NCBI RefSeq assembly: GCF_021379005.1
Contig: NZ_CP075171.1
Coordinates: forward strand, 1,488,001 to 1,552,000
From: Leptodesmis sichuanensis A121
GTDB lineage: Bacteria; Cyanobacteriota; Cyanobacteriia; Leptolyngbyales; Leptolyngbyaceae
Reading direction: 5' to 3'
Length of the DNA: 64,000 nucleotides
The notes under the pieces are model-generated. The model did no database searches. It was given only the letters and a program-made list of their open reading frames with translations, and was not told where the DNA came from. A program made the translations under genes and the position numbers. Positions within the stretch are counted from its first letter, which is position 1. Every line of letters begins with the position of its first letter. Shown piece by piece: positions 17,667-46,757 of this stretch.

Positions 17667-19565
17667 CTAAGCCAGAGTCCTCGCAGCCGCACAGACAACA
17701 CGAAAACCGATAAGGACGTTGCGGTTGTCCGGATTGACGTTGTTGCGAGAGGCAGAACGACAGTACCAGGGATCGTCGTCCCACGAACCACCGCGCAACA
17801 GCCGATAACTCGAATCGCCTCCCGCAGTCCAGGCACTGCCATCGCTGGGTGCGCCCTGATAATTTTCATGCCAGTGATCCAGGCACCACTCCCAGACATT
17901 CCCATGCATATCAAACAGCCCAAAGGCATTGGCAACCCCAAAACTGCCAACGGTGGTTGTTTCCTGACGATAAATGCCCTTTGGCCCACGACCATAGGAA
18001 CCAGACCAACCGTACTCCTTCCTATCTTCCCCACAATAATTTGCCAAATCCGTGGTAATGGTTTCCCCAAAATGAAACGGAGTCGTCGTTCCCGCTCGAC
18101 AGGCATACTCCCATTCCGCTTCGGTGGGTAAGCGATACTCATGGCCCATCTTCTGGGATAACCGGGCACAAAATTCCACGGCATCATCCCAAGACACTTG
18201 CTCAACGGGGCGATTAGCTCCTTTGAAGTAGGATGGATCGGAGTTAAGGTCTTGCTTAACTTTCGGCCAGCCTGCGACTATCTTCCATTGGGCTTGCGTC
18301 ACCGCATACTTGCCCATCCAAAAAGGCTTCACGGTCACGGCGTGTTGGGGGCGTTCATCGTCAACTCCTTCCCCATCCGGTGAACCCATCTGAAATGTAC
18401 CCCCCGGAATCGATACCAGTTCCAGCATCACCCCCTGTCCCAAATCTTCCGTCCGATATTCTGCCCATCCAGGACGGCGATTCAGCCGAACTTGAGGTTT
18501 TCCCAGTCCCAACAGACTCTTCTCAATTGCGGCGATCGTCACCACCTCAAACTCAAAGGTCGGTGCAGTCGGCCTTGCTGGAGTGGCAGGGGTAGCCGTC
18601 CGTTGTCCAGGGGGTGGTTCGATCTCAGGTGCTGGGACAGTTGGGGTTGCAGACACTCGCGCCAACCGTTCAATCCCTGCAATCCCATCTGAGTCTGCCG
18701 GAGAAGCGGCTAACACTCGAATCCACAATTGCTTGGCGAGTTTGAAATCCTGCCGCACCTCGGCCTGCAACGCATCATTTTTCAAAGTCACGATGTCTGA
18801 CAGGTTTGCTTTCCGGGGTAACAGGATCAGGTGGTATTTGGTAGGGGGTTCAATGACGCCATAGGGAGTTTGCTGGACTTGCTTGTAGGTCTGCGTCATT
18901 TGCGGAACTGTCTGTCGCAGGCGTTGATAAAGCCGTTCAACCGTAGCACAGTTGCCTTCCCCTTCAATCTGCAAACTCTGCAGCAGCGCATAGGTGAAGG
19001 CTCCCTGTTGGAGTTCCTCAATTTCATAGGAAGATTCCCAGGGGCTACAGGCAAACAGGGTAATCACCCCTTGCTGTTTCTCCTGACCAAATCCGTCACT
19101 GTCTCGTCGTCCCGAACCGCTGCGGCAAGCGTCGATCAACATGATCACGTTATCGGCTCCACTGCGACGCAGGCGATCGGTGATGTAGCTTAACGGGATC
19201 CAGGTGCTTTTCTCAATCTCATCTCCTGGATCAGCATCGATCGGCATCAGGTAGTCCCGGTCTTCATGGCGTTTACCATGTCCAGCAAAGAAGAACCAGA
19301 GATTGTCACCCGGATTCAAAAAGGGTGATTCAAACCGGATGCGGAAAAAGCGGCGCAGGGTTGCGTAGGTAGGATAGGAGTCCAGAGGGGGGCCATAGTC
19401 CTGGGGAATGGTAGGGGATTCGTCTGTAAAGTGATAAACCGTTTGGACGCTCAGTTCCCGCTGCAGAAAGGACTGCATTGCTTCTGCATCCTGCTTGGCG
19501 TAATGGAGCGGTTGCAGATTGCGATAGCCATTAATGCCGATCGTGATTGCCCAGTTGCGTCCCAT
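17667..19565 (-). CDS. Caspase-family protease fused to an FGE-sulfatase (SUMF1-like) domain
   Basis: 632 residues. N-terminal caspase domain (1-250) begins [17 protein letters not shown] and has the dyad His96 (FAGHGKR) and Cys147 (LIDACRSG), so it should be an active orthocaspase/metacaspase-like protease. A helical segment and a Pro/Thr-rich linker (about 305-350) follow. The C-terminal FGE-sulfatase domain (about 400-632) has [37 protein letters not shown] and RGGSW...CRSASR; only one of the two catalytic-type Cys positions of true formylglycine enzymes is present, so it is likely a ligand-binding or structural module. Starts 7 nt after the small upstream gene: one operon. Confidence 0.9.
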
Positions 19566-41504: not shown

Positions 41505-41963
41505 CTATATGGGTTTGGAGGTTAAGACTAATTGGAGTTTGGCGTGAATCAGGTCGATATCAGCGAGGCCTAGATCGACCTCACCCTGGAGGACAACCCC
41601 TGTGTTAAGGAGGCGATCGAGCAGTTCTAAAATTGTAGGACTGGCAGAGGTTTCACCAGGATAATATCCACCCGCTTTGGGCAGCAGGGAACCAACTTCA
41701 CCCAAATCAATATTCAAATCTTTGGGATCAATCTCAAATATGTCGCAGAGTTGAATAATTTGTTCTTCCAGTTTGCGGAGGCTTTCAGAGGCCCGTTCCA
41801 GTTCTTCATCACTGAGTTCTTCGGCTTCCATCCGGCGAATCACTTGGGCTTCCATGAGTTGCCGGAGCAGTTCCACTACGGTCAGCAATAGGGGCGCTAA
41901 ACCCGCATCTTTGCTGACTTTAGGAGTATGGGTGAGGGAATGAATTGGAAGTTCTGCAGTCAC
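41505..41963 (-). CDS. gvpK: Gas vesicle protein GvpK
   Basis: 152 residues with the conserved GvpK core: LAPLLLTVVELLRQLMEAQVIRRMEAEELSDEELERA, LCDIFEIDPKDLNIDLGEVGSLLP, GGYYPGE and LELLDRLLNTGVVLQGEVDLGLADIDLIHAKLQLVL. GvpK is needed for gas vesicle assembly. No gvpA, gvpC, gvpN, gvpJ, gvpF/L or gvpG is present in this window, so it is an orphan here or the end of a dispersed set. Confidence 0.92.
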   Translation of the reverse strand: MTAELPIHSLTHTPKVSKDAGLAPLLLTVVELLRQLMEAQVIRRMEAEELSDEELERASESLRKLEEQIIQLCDIFEIDPKDLNIDLGEVGSLLPKAGGYYPGETSASPTILELLDRLLNTGVVLQGEVDLGLADIDLIHAKLQLVLTSKPI

Positions 41964-43528: not shown

Positions 43529-44128
43529 ATGGCTGGAAAAACGATCCTCATGCTGGTAGGAGACTTTGTGGAGGACTACGAGGTCATGGTACCGTTTCAA
43601 GCTTTGCAAATGGTGGGACATACGGTGCATGCCGTTTGCCCAAATAAACAAGCGGGTGAAGCAGTACGAACGGCAGTGCATGACTTTGAGGGCGATCAGA
43701 CCTACAGTGAAAAACCGGGCCATAACTTTACCCTGAACGCCACTTTTGCTGACATTCGGCCAGAAGTGTATGATGCCCTGGTGATTCCAGGAGGACGGGC
43801 ACCGGAATATATTCGGCTAAATCCAGAGGTAATAGCGGCAGTGCAACATTTTGCCCAGGCTAATAAGCCGATCGCGGCGATTTGTCATGGTGCCCAGTTA
43901 TTAGCCGCAGCGAATGTGTTGCAAGGAAAGCGGTGTTCTGCGTATCCGGCTTGTGGCCCTGAGGTTACTCTTGTAGGTGGGCATTATGCCGACATTGCAA
44001 TGCATGAAGCGGTGGTGGACGGCAATCTGGTAACGGCTCCGGCATGGCCAGCCCATCCTCGCTGGTTAGCCGAGTTCCTAGCGTTGCTGGGAACCCGGAT
44101 TGAGCACACGGAATTGGCGATTGTATAA
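43529..44128 (+). CDS. DJ-1/PfpI family protein
   Basis: 199 residues. Nucleophile-elbow Cys in [10 protein letters not shown], acid in [11 protein letters not shown] near the N-terminus and [10 protein letters not shown]: intact PfpI/DJ-1 active site. Family members are glyoxalases/deglycases, amidases or stress chaperones. First gene of a compact operon: its TAA is 3 nt before the caspase-homologue ATG. AGGAGC precedes the start. Activity not assigned. Confidence 0.9.
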
Positions 44129-44131
44129 CTC

Positions 44132-45127
44132 ATGGAGAAGGCCGCACTGCTGGTAGGTGTAAGTTCGTGCCAGATGGATTTACCGCCCCTCCGGAAGGCA
44201 CGAACCAATGGGGAGGTGTTAAAGCGAGCGCTACAAAGCATGAACAATGGATTTCAGGTGCAAACATTGTACGATAAACCCCTCCCCGAAATGGCCGAAG
44301 CGATCGAGCGGTTTTTCAGGCAACGGGGAGACGACGATCAGATCCTGTTTCTGTTCTCTGGCTATGGAATTCAGGATGTAGATGGTCAGCTTTATTTTGT
44401 CTCCCCTTCTACGGCCTTAGATGAGTGGGGCCATTTGCTGCGATCGCGCACGCTGCCAGCCAGTTTCTTGCTTAACATTATGGAGAGCAGCCCAGCCCAA
44501 TTGCAGGTTGTCGTCTTTGATTGTTGTTTTCGCCTTACTCTGGGAATTGCCCCTCATGAGTCAGAGAGCTTTATCGGAGACAGTTTTAATCACATGATTG
44601 GCGAGCGCCGGGTCATCCTAACCGCAACTACCTATACCCAGCACGAGCCAGAACCAAAGAGTTTAGATGCCTGGAGTTACACCCGTTATCTGGCCGAAGG
44701 AGCCAGGACAGGGGCGGCTGACAAGGATTGTGATGGCTCCTTAACCGTTGAAGAATTACACGAGTACGCTCAACGTAAGTTGCAAATTGCTGCACCTGAT
44801 CAGCATCCTCAATTTTACGCTCCAGACGTAACAGCCAACCAAATGGTCTTGCAGGTACCTTCTGGAATTCCCTCTGTCAGGTATCGCCAGTTTTTAGAGA
44901 AAATTGCCCAGAGCAGCGAAAGCGAAATTGATAAAACTGAGTTCCGCATTCTCACCGGACGTAATTTGTTGAACGATTTCCGCCATCATTTGGGGCTGTC
45001 TCTACAAGATGCAACGGAAATTGAAGATCAAGTGTTACGACCCTGGCGAGAGCGTCAACAGCGGCTACAGTTATATCAAGAAAAGGTGTCTAAATTGATG
45101 CATAGGGGACAGGATGAATCCGAATGA
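44132..45127 (+). CDS. Caspase-fold protein with a Tyr/Cys dyad and EF-hand-like loop
   Basis: 331 residues. Caspase (peptidase C14) fold from MEKAALLVGVSSCQM through about 235. The catalytic His position is Tyr78 (FLFSGYGIQDVDGQLYFVSP); the Cys position is kept as Cys132 (VVFDCCFR). The dyad is thus non-canonical, and activity is uncertain. A complete EF-hand-type loop DKDCDGSLTVEE follows the core (about residue 197-208), so Ca2+ control is plausible. The C-terminal 85 residues form a helical module (LGLSLQDATEIEDQ, 287-300) like that in the next protein. Overlaps that gene by 14 nt. Confidence 0.85.
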   Translation: MEKAALLVGVSSCQMDLPPLRKARTNGEVLKRALQSMNNGFQVQTLYDKPLPEMAEAIERFFRQRGDDDQILFLFSGYGIQDVDGQLYFVSPSTALDEWGHLLRSRTLPASFLLNIMESSPAQLQVVVFDCCFRLTLGIAPHESESFIGDSFNHMIGERRVILTATTYTQHEPEPKSLDAWSYTRYLAEGARTGAADKDCDGSLTVEELHEYAQRKLQIAAPDQHPQFYAPDVTANQMVLQVPSGIPSVRYRQFLEKIAQSSESEIDKTEFRILTGRNLLNDFRHHLGLSLQDATEIEDQVLRPWRERQQRLQLYQEKVSKLMHRGQDESE

Positions 45128-46757
45128 ACAAGCTTATGAGGCACTGAGAAGGTGGCAAAAAGCACTGAGCCTGACCGATAGTGATACCCAGTTGGTTCCC
45201 CCCAGCCCCGCTCAGGAAAATCAGTCGCCTGCAAAGCCCAAGGATGTAGAGTTTTACAAGAAGCAGTATCAGGAGGCGATGGAGCGTGGATATCCCCTAT
45301 CCGATCGCGATCGCCGGGAACTGGAATCTTTACGCCAGGTACTGCACCTCCGAGACGAGGACGTACTGACAATCGAACAACAACTTGCCAGAACCGTTCT
45401 GCAAACCAACGAAACTACCGTTGAGCCACCCAGGGTTATAACCGATGCGGCCAGTCCATACAGTCCTGTCTCAGCAGATGCCCATCCCGCATCCCGCTCT
45501 GCCGATGCAGAGGTAGGGGCAAGTGAAGCTACAAATGCCACGCCTCAAACTGCTGCTCCATCCCCAGGTAATTTCAGCTTGGAGCAGGTTCTCAGCCAAC
45601 TTCCCTCCAATATGCAAGCCGTGGTTAAACAAATGCTGAAAAAGGAGGAGACAGGCATTCCAGGGGCTGCCTCTTTGGGGGAAATGGGACAACAACTTGC
45701 TGCTCATCCAGATGAATTTGGAGTTTCAGGGGCTGCATCTTCTGAGCCAATGGGACAACACCCCGTTTCCAATCCGGCTGCCGATACAGAGTTTGCCTCG
45801 TCTGAAGTGCTCCTTCCAGACCAACCAGACTCTCAAGCTGGGATGGCAGCTAACAACCCTGCGGAGCAAAACCCTCCAGAGGGGGCAAGGATACAGGCGC
45901 GAGTGAAGGTCGATCGCCGTCCCTGGCTGATCAGTATAATTCTCCTGGGTATGACTCTAGGCATTCTGGCGGGAGCCTGGTTAGCAGCCAGAACCTATTT
46001 AGTGCCTCCTGTCAAAGATCCAGCCGCTGCCGATCGCTTCTTTCAGTCGGGCACTCAACAAGCTAAACAGGGCCGGAACTCGCAGGCGATCGCAGAGTTG
46101 AATCAAGCAATTCAACTCAATCCCAATGACCCCAATCTCTACCTCAACCGGGGAGTGACTCATTACCAGGATGGAAATCTCACAGCCGCCCTGGAGGACT
46201 ACAACAAGGCATTGAATTTGAATCCCAATTTTGCTGAAGCTCTTAGTAATCGCAGCCAGGTCTATGTGGCCCAGCAGCGTTATGATGAAGCGATTAATGA
46301 TGCCAGTCGCGCGATTCAGCTCAATCCAAACCTGACAGAAGCTTACCTGAACCGGGGAAATGCCTACTTTGGTAAGAATAACCTGGATGGGGCGACTCAG
46401 GATTATCAAAAAGTTCTGCAATTGAAACCAGACCCAGCCAACCAGTCTAAGGCTTACAACAATCTTGGCAATATTAATGCGGCTCGAGACCAGTTGGATA
46501 CCGCTATTACCAATTACGATCAGGCCATCCTCATGGTTCGTGGTTATGCTGATGCCTTTTTCAATCGGGCGCTGGCTCTGGCAAGAAAAAATCAGTGTGA
46601 AGAGGCTATTCAGGGTTTTCGGGATGCGGCCAATCTTTATCAGAATCAAGGCAATTCTGAGATGCAACGACGGGCTGAGAGAAATGTGAGTCGTCTGCAA
46701 AAATGTACCCCTGCTCCTGATAGCTCTCCTCAGCCCAGCCCAGGTTCGTCTGTTTAG
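45114..46757 (+). CDS. Membrane-anchored TPR-repeat protein, partner of the caspase homologue
   Basis: 547 residues. N-terminal helical segment (1-95) contains RQVLHLRDEDVLTIEQQL (74-91), similar by eye to the caspase C-terminus. A long polar linker, a single membrane helix (WLISIILLGMTLGILAGAWLAA, about 269-290) and about six TPRs (305-525; repeats of AIAELNQAIQLNPNDPNLYLN type) follow, ending in a Pro/Ser tail. The start overlaps the caspase gene by 14 nt, implying translational coupling. Probably an adaptor placing the caspase homologue at the membrane; role inferred. Confidence 0.85.
   Translation: MNPNEQAYEALRRWQKALSLTDSDTQLVPPSPAQENQSPAKPKDVEFYKKQYQEAMERGYPLSDRDRRELESLRQVLHLRDEDVLTIEQQLARTVLQTNETTVEPPRVITDAASPYSPVSADAHPASRSADAEVGASEATNATPQTAAPSPGNFSLEQVLSQLPSNMQAVVKQMLKKEETGIPGAASLGEMGQQLAAHPDEFGVSGAASSEPMGQHPVSNPAADTEFASSEVLLPDQPDSQAGMAANNPAEQNPPEGARIQARVKVDRRPWLISIILLGMTLGILAGAWLAARTYLVPPVKDPAAADRFFQSGTQQAKQGRNSQAIAELNQAIQLNPNDPNLYLNRGVTHYQDGNLTAALEDYNKALNLNPNFAEALSNRSQVYVAQQRYDEAINDASRAIQLNPNLTEAYLNRGNAYFGKNNLDGATQDYQKVLQLKPDPANQSKAYNNLGNINAARDQLDTAITNYDQAILMVRGYADAFFNRALALARKNQCEEAIQGFRDAANLYQNQGNSEMQRRAERNVSRLQKCTPAPDSSPQPSPGSSV

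Follow-up and report, generated by a model that had tools for sequence, protein, structure and literature searches.

A cyanobacterial pseudo-caspase and its TPR-protein neighbour are probably halves of one membrane scaffold, split within a tandem helical repeat

Why should a caspase-like protein and the TPR protein encoded next to it share a short helical motif? The question arises at a gene pair of Leptodesmis sichuanensis A121, which we examined within a 64,000-nucleotide stretch (the window) of a 5.35 Mb genome assembled as a single contig. Both genes lie on the forward strand. The first (44132-45127) encodes 331 residues with a caspase p20 domain (Pfam Peptidase_C14, residues 3-231, E 5.7e-12) and no p10, the region after p20 being occupied by a repeat, R1 (residues 247-305; 44870-45046), and then by the first helix of a second repeat, R2 (residues 306-322; 45047-45097), as aligned with relatives that carry the whole array in one chain. 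The second gene (45114-46757) overlaps the first by 14 nt (45114-45127) and encodes 547 residues, opening with helices 2 and 3 of R2 (residues 4-28; 45123-45197; hhalign against R3, P 3.2e-7) and repeat R3 (residues 43-94; 45240-45395), followed by a variable linker (45396-45917), a probable transmembrane helix recognised by reading as the hydrophobic stretch WLISIILLGMTLGILAGAWLAARTYL (about residues 269-293; 45918-45992) and a TPR array (about residues 300-520; 46011-46673; Pfam TPR_11, E 5.1e-36, and other TPR models). PADLOC assigned only generic caspase and TPR models to the pair. A DJ-1/PfpI gene lies directly upstream (43529-44128, forward strand; Pfam E 2.8e-44) and recurs in relatives G012 and G011, but it is absent within the fetched flank of G013, so the association is not general. 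Elsewhere in the window, 41505-41963 on the reverse strand encodes gas vesicle protein K, with a GvpA-like gas vesicle domain either fused to it or following in frame, and 17667-19565 on the reverse strand encodes a second caspase of 632 residues, in which His and Cys are present by reading (FFAGHG, LIDACRSG) and the C-terminus is an FGS/C-type-lectin-like fusion. Domains of this kind are frequently diversified by retroelements.

An earlier note had aligned caspase residues 285-302 (44984-45037) with TPR-protein residues 74-91 (45333-45386) under the pattern xxLxLxxxDxxxIExQ. The peptides lie at the positions given and both carry L-L-D-I-E-Q, but the register does not hold, as residue 285 pairs with 75 and not with 74. 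Because it is one residue off, the pairing as written yields a BLOSUM62 score of -8 with 2 identities, against a score of 18 with 6 identities when corrected. Even the corrected match is no better than chance, since shuffled sequences equalled or exceeded a score of 18 in 94-100% of trials, and BLASTP of the caspase region against the TPR region did not find the claimed match or anything of value. Taken alone, this non-significant pairwise alignment would favour mere chance similarity between two helical segments, a reading that we consider exceedingly improbable in view of profile comparisons with shuffled controls. The profile-profile comparison that the note had proposed, run with hhalign on alignments of both regions across 14 genomes, related R1 to R3 with a probability of 85% (P 6e-6), and none of 200 column-shuffled controls reached the observed score (30.5 versus 19.8 for the best control). 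Independent HMMs, trained exclusively on copies from distant proteins, gave the same picture: a first-copy model matched caspase residues 246-307 (40.3 bits, E 5.9e-11; best decoy 6.6 bits) and a later-copy model matched TPR-protein residues 46-92 (50.0 bits, E 5.4e-14; best decoy 7.2 bits), the decoys being 5000 shuffled proteins. The shared ancestry proposed for the two segments is thus borne out, and small homologous helical units are indeed common to an effector-like protein and its neighbour. What the note missed is the middle copy, R2, which is cut by the gene boundary. On these profiles, the motif is the homology of the first and third repeats in a tandem array.

One unit of this array spans about 55 residues, and first copies (LGLSxxEAxxIExEVLxP; R1 is of this type) can be distinguished from later copies (YPLSExxRxxLxxLQxxLxLRDEDVxxIE; R3 is of this type). 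Of 292 genomes sampled from the phylum, at least 46 contain the repeat (E <= 1e-4), a lower bound because at most 23 candidates per genome were scored. Most carriers hold two adjacent copies and some up to seven; three to seven stand in a row in L065, L059 and G230:C1:196955-198121, in some cases with TPRs directly behind them. Named by reading their sequences, the carriers place the repeat C-terminal to caspases, Ser/Thr kinases and TIR domains, with GUN4, FGS (formylglycine-sulfatase-like), WD40, TPR, DnaJ-C-like or periplasmic-binding-like parts behind it. Neither Pfam nor NCBIfam has a family that covers the unit. Searching the PDB with the repeat profile returned weak, scattered matches that we treated as chance (best N-WASP, E 0.0027; Tic110, E 0.32), as we did a Pfam match to Tic110 by one of 16 repeat copies (E 0.034). 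The analysis thus defines a tandem repeat for which no model existed, and which, across cyanobacteria, connects sensors and scaffolds with caspase, kinase and TIR domains.

Relatives of the gene pair account for the distribution of the three copies. Eleven genomes from the window's own family encode p20 together with R1-R2-R3 in one ORF, about 810-850 residues long where complete (that of L046 runs off its contig), and nearly all of these chains hold three significant copies. R2 of the single-chain protein L041 (residues 305-353) matches the later-copy HMM with E 4.6e-7 and spans the site of the cut. A transmembrane helix and TPRs follow in the single-chain relatives where checked: the hydrophobic maximum falls at the position equivalent to the probable transmembrane helix of the window TPR protein, six of them (L041-L045, L047) contain the TPR part of that protein by BLAST, and two more (L020, L021) show readable TPRs. 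The two-gene form was found in the window and seven relatives (G011, G012, G013, G014, G028, G040 and G041), and in split genomes the boundary falls inside R2, leaving helix 1 on the caspase while the remainder opens the TPR protein. In the fragmented assembly of G011, the caspase gene (L040 355-1507, reverse strand) changes frame near residue 186 and is either a pseudogene or an assembly error. Downstream genes are shared between the G028 split pair and the single-chain genes of G024 and G015, which makes these loci positional orthologues. This conserved downstream neighbourhood, seen at split and single-chain loci (L039 7983-9704, L042 7814-9921, L043 8027-10092), includes a PrmC-like methyltransferase and a Tic22-like protein, both named by reading.

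A maximum-likelihood tree of the caspase part groups the split and the single-chain members as one clade (100/100), next to 13 outgroup caspases whose first and later repeats lie within one chain. As far as sequence can tell, the two genes are the halves of the single protein found in relatives, cut within R2, and from the tree we infer that the change ran from one chain to two genes. A single change explains the split form, but the branch of G028 is weakly placed (44/18), so one single fission is not certain.

Overlapping reading frames and single-chain relatives would also be expected if the two ORFs were one gene, with programmed frameshifting yielding the fusion protein of the relatives. 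We regard this as very unlikely, since the relation of the frames differs among the split genomes, with the TPR gene offset by 1 in the window, G014 and G028 and by 2 in G012, G013, G040 and G041, a variation that disfavours a programmed frameshift and favours coupled initiation. Moreover, each TPR gene of the split genomes has its own start codon, and a G-rich Shine-Dalgarno-like stretch is present in five (the window, G012, G013, G028 and G040); in the window the sequence is AGGGGA (45104-45109), 4 nt ahead of the TPR start codon. The overlap is 4, 11 or 14 nt in every split genome read.

Whether the halves still act together can be judged from mean identity within the split lineage, computed for the window and five relatives. 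Both pieces of R2, helix 1 on the caspase (67%) and helices 2-3 on the TPR protein (68%), are about as conserved as p20 (71%) and R1 (74%), with R3 at 49% and the TPR array at 55%, whereas little is conserved in the linker (21%), at the cut end of the caspase (24%) or in the stretch behind R2 (29%), where the sequence is free to vary. These figures are the main ground for expecting docking, and they point to R2 as its site rather than to contact between R1 and R3. The pattern suggests that the pieces still fold together across two proteins, although the conserved halves could instead reflect other partners, and the R2 half on the window TPR protein is by itself a weak match (7.9 bits versus 7.2 for the best decoy). 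Given the single-chain relatives, the caspase and the TPR protein likely associate physically, and their chief contact is most likely the completion of the split R2 and not R1 against R3. Structure prediction with AlphaFold2, which drew on the window and two near relatives, was of little use for the window caspase (pLDDT 43.7 with three sequences, unusable). For the read-through repeat array it returned a low-confidence model (pLDDT 58), too weak for a fold search, with helical units for R1 and R3 and a helix that runs from R1 into R2 and ends at the cut; at such confidence, a shared fold of R1 and R3 is argued from sequence profiles only. The proteins might alternatively have become functionally independent after fission, with the repeats as spacers and the gene order as a relic, and the faster divergence of R3 and the linker relative to the caspase would fit such independence. 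We give this reading a small chance, as it sits poorly with two R2 pieces as conserved as p20 and with genes that have stayed next to each other, with an overlap, in every split genome read.

The caspase half has probably lost proteolytic activity. Aligned with 13 relatives in which His and Cys are intact, the window protein has Tyr78 at the position of the catalytic His (44363-44365; FSGYG for FSGHG) and keeps Cys132 at the position of the catalytic Cys (44525-44527). The His-Cys dyad is missing from all 19 members of the window clade and intact in 13 of 13 outgroup caspases; besides Tyr-Cys in the window, the clade shows Tyr-Ser, Tyr-Tyr, His-Tyr and more. With the dyad lost across the clade, the window caspase is most likely a pseudo-caspase.

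We therefore propose, as the probable explanation of the locus, that a pseudo-caspase/TPR membrane scaffold underwent fission and that its two halves come back together by completing R2. The ancestor would have been one chain of inactive p20, R1-R2-R3 at about 55 residues each, a variable linker, a transmembrane helix and a TPR array. Cutting the chain in the loop that follows helix 1 of R2 would have left R1 and that helix on the pseudo-caspase, and R2 helices 2-3 with R3 on the TPR protein. Translation of the overlapping genes would be coupled, to judge from overlaps of 4-14 nt and the Shine-Dalgarno-like site, and the halves would then rejoin at R2, holding the pseudo-caspase at the membrane beside the TPR array. 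Loss of the dyad and the architecture point to a complex that is probably a non-proteolytic sensor or scaffold, in which binding would fall to p20 and docking to the TPR array. Such a locus amounts to a natural split-protein experiment, where single-chain relatives predict the surfaces that must bind once the halves separate. That a whole pseudo-caspase clade is kept in membrane-anchored scaffolds also bears on the role of inactive caspases in bacteria.

Two further caspases of the same genome carry the repeat. A paralogue (L002 1471-3540, forward strand; C1:5049515-5050462) retains the His-Cys dyad and bears two tandem repeats within a single chain. A caspase-GUN4 protein (L052 949-2859, reverse strand; G000:C1:2295851-2297758), with His and Cys intact by reading, has one repeat of the R3 type and a GUN4-like domain. 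Among 120 copies, the ten nearest to its repeat are without exception last copies from the pseudo-caspase/TPR family, which suggests domain shuffling, and no such repeat was seen in its nearest relatives fetched from other genomes, some of those loci holding only a partial gene. We looked for same-genome co-divergence of the window R3 with this repeat and rejected it, the nearest copies not being specifically those of the window. The caspase-GUN4 protein could be a trans partner of R3. An extended form, in which R2 is reassembled first and an exposed R3 then recruits the caspase-GUN4 protein by like-like contact, so that an inactive membrane caspase controls an active one, strikes us as a long shot.

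In bacterial conflict systems, effector-associated domains (EADs; Kaur et al. 2020, PMC7159879; 2021, PMC8195603) are among the closest known parallels, and the one suggested by the earlier note; they are defined by a copy on a core component and copies on effectors, with adjacent copies closest in similarity (PMC7159879). The window repeat resembles them as a small non-enzymatic helical unit beside caspase, kinase and TIR domains, with copies in adjacent genes and elsewhere in the same genome, and it may work like an adaptor. It differs in normally forming tandem arrays within one chain, and no MoxR-vWA, GTPase or STAND core was found beside it. The copies sit on adjacent caspase and TPR genes, yet the sequence marks the caspase as inactive, and the TPR protein is no known core component. 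The EAD assignment is not supported: Pfam EAD models matched none of the 16 repeat copies even at E 10, and the ten flanking genes scanned belong to housekeeping or unknown families, with no NTPase core (MoxR-vWA, GTPase-GAP1, STAND) among them. A search of the genome for EAD1 (PF19955), run without a positive control, found none, and a search with AAA_5 was too general to inform on MoxR cores. Nor are adjacent copies the closest, as R1 and R3 are 27% identical and each is nearer to its own position in another genome (L032; R1 73%, R3 38%). On present evidence, the window repeat is not a member of the EADs.

Docking of the EAD type, in which the caspase R1 and the TPR-protein R3 would bind each other as homotypic adaptor domains, nevertheless has points in its favour: small helical units common to adjacent genes, one fused to an effector-like domain, the company that the repeat keeps elsewhere, and the R3-like copy on another caspase of the genome. 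We judge it unlikely, given the missing EAD match, the lack of an NTPase core among the flanking genes scanned, the low identity of the adjacent copies and the relatives, whose R1 and R3 sit in one chain, so that their homology needs no docking role. Instead of like-like modules gained by two proteins, both copies come from one tandem array in a single ancestral protein.

The other close counterparts are found among caspases. The window p20 is similar to EACC1-associated caspases (NCBIfam NF047832; 102 bits), yet falls below the curated cut-off of 140, and its TPR-protein partner is not recognised as EACC1. Among multidomain orthocaspases of cyanobacteria, those with WD40, TPR, FGS or GUN4 parts likewise join a caspase to interaction or sensor domains, a layout shared by the single-chain relatives; the portions of these sources that were searched contain no description of the repeat or the split (PMC3501461, PMC7517822). 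Pseudo-orthocaspases are already known, and the window protein resembles them as a cyanobacterial p20 without the His-Cys dyad, with Tyr replacing His. In the part of that study available to us, cyanobacterial members mostly lack further identified domains and TPRs are described on Phe-Ser pseudo-orthocaspases of Rhizobiales, whereas tandem repeats and a membrane TPR partner accompany the window protein (Klemencic et al. 2019, PMC6426788).
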